This document shows positions 8,890-19,570 of a DNA stretch of 38,502 nucleotides, piece by piece. The stretch comes from Alphaproteobacteria bacterium (GTDB lineage Bacteria > Pseudomonadota > Alphaproteobacteria > TMED109), in the NCBI GenBank assembly GCA_029247025.1, contig JAQWLZ010000027.1:1-38502 (forward strand), in the 5' to 3' direction. A program made the position numbers and the translations under genes. Position 1 is the stretch's first letter. Each line of letters begins with the position of its first letter. Below the pieces are notes generated by a model. It saw nothing but the letters and a program-made list of their open reading frames with translations. It had not been told where the DNA came from and made no database searches.

Positions 8890-8946
8890 AAGGCATGCCT
8901 TTTTCTCTATAAAAAGTAATTTTTGCATGTGTTTTTTGCATGCCTT
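8890..8946. repeat. Nested inverted repeat with tandem 13-base direct repeat
   Basis: AAGGCATGC (8890-8898) is matched by GCATGCCTT (8938-8946). The left copy is also the core of a 12-base palindrome AAGGCATGCCTT (8890-8901). Inside the 39-base loop CTTTTT and AAAAAG can form a smaller hairpin. The right part is a contiguous direct repeat of period 13: TTTTGCATGTGTT (8921-8933) and TTTTGCATGCCTT (8934-8946), 11 of 13 bases identical. No terminator-like T-tract follows. The repeated TTTTGCATG boxes look more like protein sites than an RNA fold, but that is inference. Confidence 0.6.
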
Positions 8947-8950
8947 ATTT

Positions 8951-8966
8951 GTAACATTATTGTTAC
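8951..8966. promoter_or_regulatory. Candidate operator palindrome upstream of the twin-hairpin RNA
   Basis: GTAACATTATTGTTAC is a perfect inverted repeat with six-base arms and a four-base centre. Its centre is about 42 bases upstream of the predicted transcription start near 9001, where an activator or a repressor covering the -35 region would bind. No regulator family is assigned. Confidence 0.4.
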
Positions 8967-8988: not shown

Positions 8989-8994
8989 TATAAT
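8989..8994 (+). promoter_or_regulatory. Predicted -10 element TATAAT for the 9001-9391 transcript
   Basis: A perfect TATAAT sits seven bases before 9001, where the first stem of the twin-hairpin RNA begins. The expected -35 position (8965-8971, CTATTT and neighbours) does not match consensus, which would fit a factor-dependent promoter using the palindrome at 8951-8966. In DNA this AT-rich a chance TATAAT is common, so the call rests on its position. Confidence 0.4.
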
Positions 8995-9000
8995 TATTAA

Positions 9001-9128
9001 AATAATGATGGTTTGATATTCCTCCCCTGATGATATTTTCATCTACATATTTCAAATTATTATTATTTTATAAACATAATGGCAGTTTGAGTATTATTCC
9101 TCCCCATATGAAATCCAAACTGCCATTA
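9001..9128 (+). ncRNA. Twin stem-loop RNA with identical TATTCCTCCCC loops (structured leader or small RNA)
   Basis: Two consecutive stem-loops are visible. SL1: AATAATGATGGTTTGA (9001-9016) pairs with 9052-9067 over 16 positions, 13 Watson-Crick and three G-U. SL2: 9077-9089 pairs perfectly with 9116-9128 (13 pairs, core GGCAGTTTG). Each loop carries the same 11 bases, TATTCCTCCCC, at 9017-9027 and 9095-9105. SL1 also has a small inner hairpin GATGA/TCATC (9029-9033, 9039-9043). The C-rich motif stands out in such AT-rich DNA. Its CCUCC core mimics the anti-Shine-Dalgarno end of 16S rRNA. Alphaproteobacterial sRNAs such as NfeR1/alpha-r14 and the Rhodobacter CcsR family use comparable loop motifs. 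No T-run terminator follows SL2 and the small gene at 9152 begins 24 bases later, so it may be a leader, possibly processed. UUCCU in each loop could pair with AGGAA at that gene's ribosome binding site. Confidence 0.55.
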
Positions 9129-9151
9129 AGTAAATCAAGGAAAAAAAACAC

Positions 9152-9391
9152 ATGAAATATGAGCTTTTAAACAAATCTTCATTTATTAAAATTAATAATT
9201 CACAAATTAGTAAATATACAAAATTTGAATATTCTATTGAGAAATTAAGTCTTGGAAAGAGAGCTCAAAGTAAATATATTATTAGAATAATAAGTTTTTT
9301 AATAAATAATAAATCTAAAAAAAGAAAAAATATTTTTTATAACAATAGTAATTCCTCAGAAATTTATTCAAAAGAATGGTGGTTGATTTAA
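9152..9391 (+). CDS. Small basic protein of unknown function
   Basis: A 79-codon frame beginning with ATG, preceded by AAGGA (9137-9141) ten bases away. The product is rich in K, N, S and I, has no signal peptide or clear membrane segment, and carries a basic centre (KRAQSKYIIRIISFL then KSKKRKN) and an acidic-aromatic end, SKEWWLI. I recognise no family. It lies directly behind the twin stem-loop RNA, an arrangement that loosely recalls small basic DUF1127-type proteins encoded next to anti-Shine-Dalgarno sRNAs in Rhodobacter, but I see no DUF1127 signature. An open frame this long is unlikely by chance in such AT-rich DNA, where stop codons are frequent, which supports it being real. Its stop overlaps that of convergent prmA by a few bases. 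Confidence 0.55.
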   Translation: MKYELLNKSSFIKINNSQISKYTKFEYSIEKLSLGKRAQSKYIIRIISFLINNKSKKRKNIFYNNSNSSEIYSKEWWLI

Positions 9392-18736: not shown

Positions 18737-19570
18737 ATGTCATCTAAAGCTAATCATCCATACCATCTAGTTGATCCTAGTCCTTGGCCTTTAGTAGGAG
18801 CTATATCTGCATTGGTATTAGCCGTAGGTGCAATTATGTATATGCATGAAATAGATAGTGGCATAGTTATGGGCATAGGTTTAATTATGTGTCTTGGAAC
18901 TATGGCTGTTTGGTGGAGAGATGTAATAAAAGAAGGTGAACATGGTGGACATCATACTACTACAGTACAATTAGGATTAAGATATGGAATGGTTCTATTT
19001 ATTGCATCTGAAGTTATGTTTTTTGTGGCCTGGTTCTGGGCTTTTTTTGATGCTAGTCTTTATGCAAATGAAGCAATTCAGGTAGCAAGAGTTGAGCATA
19101 CTGGAGGTACTTGGCCTCCTCAAGGAGTAGAAGTATTTGATCCTTGGCATTTGCCATTAATAAATACTATAATTTTATTAACTTCTGGAACCACTGTTAC
19201 ATGGGCTCATCATGCATTAAAAGAAAATAAAAGAGGTGGTTTGATCTGGGGGTTAGTCCTAACAGTTATTTTGGGTGTATGTTTTACTGCAGTACAAGCA
19301 TACGAATATGGGCATGCAGCTTTTGGTTTTACTGATGGTATTTATTCTTCAACTTTCTTTATGGCTACAGGTTTTCATGGTGCTCATGTACTTATTGGAT
19401 CTATATTTTTAATTGTTTGTTTAGGAAGAGCATTAGTAGGACATTTCAAGCCAGATCATCATTTTGGATTTGAAGCTGCTGCATGGTATTGGCACTTTGT
19501 TGATGTAGTATGGTTATTTTTGTTCTTTGCTATATACTGGTGGGGCGGTTTAGGTGGTACAGTCCACTAA
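18737..19570 (+). CDS. coxC: Cytochrome c oxidase subunit III
   Basis: Seven-helix subunit III, which stabilises CoxA during turnover. Signatures: NHPYHLVDPSPWPL at the N-terminus, LRYGMVLFIASEVMFFVAWFW carrying the conserved membrane glutamate, FHGAHVLIGS, and AAAWYWHFVDVVWLFLF near the end. The length of 277 includes a normal loop between helices 3 and 4. GGGAGA precedes the ATG. Its last 17 bases overlap the DUF983 gene, indicating coupled translation. Confidence 0.98.
   Translation: MSSKANHPYHLVDPSPWPLVGAISALVLAVGAIMYMHEIDSGIVMGIGLIMCLGTMAVWWRDVIKEGEHGGHHTTTVQLGLRYGMVLFIASEVMFFVAWFWAFFDASLYANEAIQVARVEHTGGTWPPQGVEVFDPWHLPLINTIILLTSGTTVTWAHHALKENKRGGLIWGLVLTVILGVCFTAVQAYEYGHAAFGFTDGIYSSTFFMATGFHGAHVLIGSIFLIVCLGRALVGHFKPDHHFGFEAAAWYWHFVDVVWLFLFFAIYWWGGLGGTVH

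Follow-up and report, generated by a model that had tools for sequence, protein, structure and literature searches.

Twin hairpins with anti-Shine-Dalgarno-like loops in the leader of a small basic protein gene of AT-rich marine alphaproteobacteria

A structured and conserved leader was identified in the 38,502-nt stretch of DNA that was analyzed (hereafter the window), and it is most likely an anti-Shine-Dalgarno (anti-SD) RNA that is encoded together with a small basic protein. As judged from sequence comparison, two hairpins with open C-rich loops are conserved on the + strand, in leader position before a real protein gene. Both hairpins and both 11-base motifs described in a first-pass annotation were found at the coordinates it gave, and a conserved inner hairpin was added to them. 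The features of the locus are as follows.

8951–8966, no strand assigned: palindrome GTAACATTATTGTTAC, a possible activator site centered about −42 from the putative transcript start.
8989–8994, + strand: TATAAT, the likely −10 element of a transcript presumed to start near 9001.
8998–9070, + strand: first hairpin (SL1) with an outer stem of 16–19 bp (core 9001–9016/9052–9067) and a C-rich loop, from the minimum-free-energy (MFE) fold, shuffles, and covariation.
9017–9027, + strand: loop copy 1, TATTCCTCCCC, in SL1 (core 9021–9027).
9029–9033/9039–9043, + strand: inner hairpin of SL1, beside the loop.
9077–9128, + strand: second hairpin (SL2) with a 13-bp stem (9077–9089/9116–9128), from the MFE fold and covariation.
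9095–9105, + strand: loop copy 2, TATTCCTCCCC, in SL2 (core 9099–9105).
9137–9141, + strand: AAGGA, the Shine-Dalgarno (SD) sequence of the small gene, 10 bases 5' of the ATG at 9152, with a predicted unpaired probability of 0.77.
9152–9391, + strand: small basic protein gene (79 aa), supported by homologs, dN/dS, and pI, without a family match.

The 151-base hairpin stretch folded with an MFE of −39.6 kcal/mol, compared with a shuffle mean of −18.8 (SD 3.25), which corresponded to a z-score of −6.4, and none of the 200 shuffles folded as well. In the 1.5-Mb genome, TATTCCTCCCC has three occurrences: the two hairpin loops and a site within a coding gene. When at most one mismatch was tolerated, the 11-mer was matched four times in the window against 0.27 expected. 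The two stems had been described as unrelated, which was partly wrong, as a loop-proximal GTTTG...CAAA is common to SL1 and SL2; in the relatives, this part of the stem tends to change alike in both hairpins (TTTGGTCTTTCCTCCCC and CTTGGTTTTTCCTCCCC in G001).

When 41 genomes were searched, five more of the same genus proved to contain the region, as did G007, which belongs to a second genus. The element is thus present as a single copy in each of six of the seven genomes of the genus and in one genome of the second, and these carriers are marine MAGs (e.g., TMED109 and MarineAlpha9_Bin3). Public sequences of carriers are NHFK01000026, PBIU01000003, and PTKH01000002. G003, the genome of the same genus without the element, is only 61% complete. 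When aligned with orientation corrected, all carriers displayed both hairpins, both C-rich loops, and the small ORF behind them. The covariance-model search that the first-pass annotation had proposed returned one copy per genome in seven of 28 family genomes, the weak second matches being the same places on the opposite strand. When the model was applied to 385 genomes drawn evenly from the class, all matches fell within the genus, and G007 was not among them. No match at the gathering score was obtained from Rfam 15, and the matches below it were at chance level, in line with the earlier suggestion that the hairpins may form a new family.

Loop copy 1 reads CCTCCCC in five of the seven homologs, CCTTCCC in G005, and CCTCTCC in G006, and loop copy 2 reads CCTCCCC in the SL2 of all seven (with a shift of 1–2 bases in the alignment allowed for G007). 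The predicted probability of being unpaired among the homologs was 0.79–1.0 for the first loop and 0.87–1.0 for the second, and the fold z-scores ranged from −3.8 to −6.2 in every homolog. For the named structure, 93.7% of the cells in the seven sequences were paired and six pairs were changed on both sides, compared with a shuffled mean of 1.8; one of 500 shuffles reached as high a count, and slid versions gave at most two. Four of these two-sided changes fell in the outer stem of SL1 (94.6% of cells paired) and two in SL2 (95.6%). Covariation among seven related sequences gives the structure moderate support. Stems and loop motif, whose absence from close relatives would have spoken against the earlier interpretation, are conserved across them. 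Chance hairpins or a mobile repeat could be suspected from the AT-rich stem of SL1 in a genome of approximately 29% GC; this explanation is most improbable in view of the covariation, the z-scores, and the constant location of the element before prmA in genomes that have diverged, and a mobile repeat family was ruled out by the single copy per genome.

The stems contain 19 G-U cells when read on the + strand against three A-C cells, which would be G-U on the minus strand, and the RNA is therefore most likely read on the + strand. The locus is flanked by a PrmA-like gene ending convergently at 9388 and a divergent aminopeptidase-P-like gene upstream (both named by eye from sequence). Since prmA and pepP both lie on the minus strand, on which the loops read GGGGAGGAATA, a minus-strand RNA with GGA loops (GGGGAGGA) could serve as a CsrA/RsmA-type decoy between them. 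This candidate was rejected on the G-U/A-C count and is very improbable; the promoter-like site and the ORF also lie on the + strand.

As TATATAAT, located just 5' of SL1, is conserved in six of the seven homologs, transcription probably begins near 9001, at the base of SL1. No canonical −35 element was found beside the TATAAT, and a consensus promoter scan did not return this promoter. The palindrome is conserved nearly letter for letter in five of six carriers of the genus and is weaker in G001 and G007. Neither in approximately 560 kb of G000 nor in 536 kb of G002 does its sequence GTAACATTATTGTTAC have a second exact copy. In the form GTAACATTAWTGTTAC, its center lies approximately 42 bases upstream of the putative transcript start. 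Class II activators bind approximately 42 bases upstream of the transcript start, and the palindrome is a possible site for such an activator. Upstream of the palindrome, positions 8899–8948 of the window contain GCATGCC-type inverted repeats (AAGGCATGCCTT and GCATG...GCATGC) conserved in the genus, one of which scores as terminator-like (8925–8943); they may be operators or the end of another RNA.

A scan behind SL2 revealed no terminator-like site and no U-tail. The hairpins are therefore a leader unless processed, and a free sRNA would need processing. The position of the unit before a small gene had been anticipated, and the gene itself is real. Homologs of the small ORF (79–88 aa) were found in exactly the seven hairpin genomes, and as their pairwise dN/dS was 0.22–0.62 and their length differences keep the frame, the ORF is considered to be a real protein gene. 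The protein has a pI of 9.4–10.0 across the homologs and a conserved SK-x-WW motif at its end. No convincing match was retrieved from Pfam or NCBIfam, and a phage origin was dropped for want of a match. The structure model consisted of one long helix and was of low confidence (mean pLDDT of 63.8 and pTM of 0.28).

In the alpha-r14/NfeR1 RNAs, the loops are identical although the stems diverge, and these RNAs silence mRNAs by covering the SD (PMC10746234, PMC3927594); NfeR1 is Hfq-independent (PMC10746234). The present element resembles this group (SmelA075 in the Rhizobiales survey) in having several hairpins with identical anti-SD loops on diverging stems, which is also the hallmark of the alpha-r14/cuckoo RNAs. 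As noted in the first-pass annotation, the loops are alike as well, the core UCCUCCC being contained in CCUCCUCCC, the motif of the alpha-r14/NfeR1 RNAs. The exact motif CCUCCUCCC is absent, the loop here being UAUUCCUCCCC with the seven-base core shared, and no curated RNA family was matched. NfeR1 is a separate sRNA of three hairpins, whereas the element here has two hairpins placed before a protein gene without a terminator. The other relevant system, ccaF1-CcsR1-4 of Rhodobacter sphaeroides (CIN1/cuckoo RNA), likewise co-encodes a CcsR-like RNA with a small protein, and CcaF1 shows that a small RNA-binding protein can be co-transcribed with such an RNA (PMC10253847). In ccaF1-CcsR1-4, the DUF1127 gene leads, the four RNAs follow in the 3' UTR, and transcription is from an RpoHI/RpoHII promoter; here, the order is the opposite, with hairpins 5' of the ORF in all seven genomes, and the small protein is unrelated to DUF1127 (no match to PF06568 or any other Pfam family). 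Because the exact motif, the DUF1127 partner, and the family model were all lacking, the element is regarded as the same kind as alpha-r14/CcsR and not as a member of those families. The principle is known from other alphaproteobacteria, and the element appears to be an independently assembled version of it whose parts are arranged differently.

From these likenesses, we infer a 5'-leader RNA whose loops mask the SD sites of other mRNAs and which is made together with the small basic protein, and we give this reading an even chance. The transcript from near 9001 would open with two hairpins, each presenting an unpaired UCCUCCC(C), and run into the small gene. By analogy with the alpha-r14/NfeR1 and CcsR loops, the loops would act in trans, as part of the mRNA or once released by cleavage behind SL2, by pairing with GGGAG/GGAGG-type SD sites of other mRNAs and lowering their translation. 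The two hairpins would provide two equivalent pairing sites, and, as suggested by ccaF1-CcsR, the basic protein may serve to bind the RNA, mature it, or protect it. Sister genera of the family have the canonical 16S end GGATCACCTCCTTTCT, and in the genes of carrier genomes, AGGA/GGAG SD words are most frequent at −13 to −10; thus, the loops could mask SDs. The genus's own 16S end is absent from the assemblies, and a pattern match to it in G001 was discarded because it lay inside a coding gene.

The hairpins could instead control the small gene only, by pairing of the loops with AAGGA, by slowed ribosome loading, or by protection of the 5' end. The element always lies directly 5' of the same gene, with no copy elsewhere, and UUCCU of the loop is complementary to AGGAA at the start of the gene and could pair with it, as the first-pass annotation had proposed. 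The SD was nevertheless predicted to be open (0.70–0.98) in five of the six homologs in which the motif is intact (the sixth, G006, gave 0.37, and G004 has an ambiguous base), and the loop and the SD showed no concerted changes. Pairing with the gene's own SD needs no CCC part, yet the fixed part is CCTCCCC, and any anti-SD-like loop would match any SD. The cis pairing was thus not sustained, and we regard a purely cis-acting leader as rather unlikely.

The same loop core also occurs in a second hairpin in the family. A scan of the retrieved parts of G010, a genome without the twin element, revealed a hairpin whose loop contains CTCCTCCC, directly 5' of a PsiE-family gene.

L200:4066–4127 (G010; homologs L221–L228): psiE-leader hairpin with UCCUCCC in an open loop.

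Eight genomes of the genera g3, g5, and g8 share this hairpin, with an invariant ATTACTCCTCCCTAGTAA stretch and covarying stem pairs; it is preceded by a promoter-like site, TTGATT-N17-TATTAT (TAATAT in G008 and G020), and by a gene for a short-chain fatty acyl-CoA regulator (ScfRs domain). As its stem is followed by a pyrimidine/U-rich stretch, the hairpin might be a small RNA of its own, of approximately 65 bases. No genome was found with both the twin element and the psiE hairpin, and G000 and G004 have psiE without the hairpin. Both elements present UCCUCCC in an open loop, at the putative transcript start and before a gene; the psiE leader differs in having one hairpin, another stem, and another gene. 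The occurrence of the same core on two unrelated stems at leader starts within one family supports selection on the loop.

A further alternative is a protein-binding or RNA-stability element. The C-rich loops might dock an RNA-binding protein, perhaps the encoded one in an autoregulatory manner, or stabilize the RNA, with SD pairing being irrelevant. A repeated loop with a shared loop-proximal stem resembles a recognition unit, and the encoded protein is basic; against this, the core coincides with a proven anti-SD seed, and the psiE hairpin carries the same core in genomes without the small protein detected. We consider protein docking improbable.

Hfq was matched in 10 of the 28 family genomes, and none was found in the eight g1/g2 genomes (G000–G007), even with a family-specific profile; one of these genomes is 96% complete. 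The lack of an Hfq match in the carriers counts against the anti-SD reading, although NfeR1 acts without Hfq (PMC10746234). The aminotransferase gene neighboring Hfq has another genomic context in the carriers, so that its surroundings do not bear on a loss of Hfq. The psiE-hairpin genomes G008, G013, G017, and G020 also lacked an Hfq match, and the contrast in Hfq between carriers and other genomes is therefore suggestive only. DUF1127 (PF06568) was not found in any of the 28 genomes. The anti-SD-loop principle is hereby extended to AT-rich marine alphaproteobacteria (TMED109/MarineAlpha9-type), in which neither Hfq nor DUF1127 was detected, and the findings suggest that the same loop core was mounted more than once, on unrelated stems and beside unrelated genes. 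A tentative and probably incorrect extension of the anti-SD reading is that a two-part regulator of RNA and protein arose separately from ccaF1-CcsR in a lineage in which no Hfq can be detected, with the basic protein as a dedicated partner of the tandem 5' hairpins, and with related genera using a single UCCUCCC hairpin before psiE instead. The element offers a concrete system for studying target choice by an anti-SD-imitating RNA and for asking whether a small co-encoded protein can replace Hfq.

GGGAG upstream of starts was enriched 5–8 fold in G000, G002, and G006. Since other SD words were likewise enriched, and since GGGAG was also enriched 3.7 fold in G010, a sister genome that lacks the element, this was rejected as a target signature for being non-specific. 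A target ranking by duplex energy gave no clear excess over a reversed-loop control. The capture of other mRNAs suggested in the first-pass annotation was thus not matched by a global excess of loop-complementary start regions over controls; that interpretation was partly supported, faring well on structure, strand, leader position, and loop likeness and poorly on mRNA capture, cis pairing, and unrelated stems. The best conserved target candidates were sodium-solute symporter-like, fumarylacetoacetase-like, and ilvE-like genes (named by eye), which are leads only. A cytochrome c oxidase subunit III-like gene in the window (18737–19570) has a GGGAG ribosome-binding site in G000 and G002 and is a possible loop target. 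A GGGAG ribosome-binding site also precedes L114 (G000:C29), whose first 110 aa match AmoC/PmoC (Pfam PF04896, E = 5e-12), a subunit of particulate ammonia/methane/hydrocarbon monooxygenase, in the AT-rich marine alphaproteobacterium G000.
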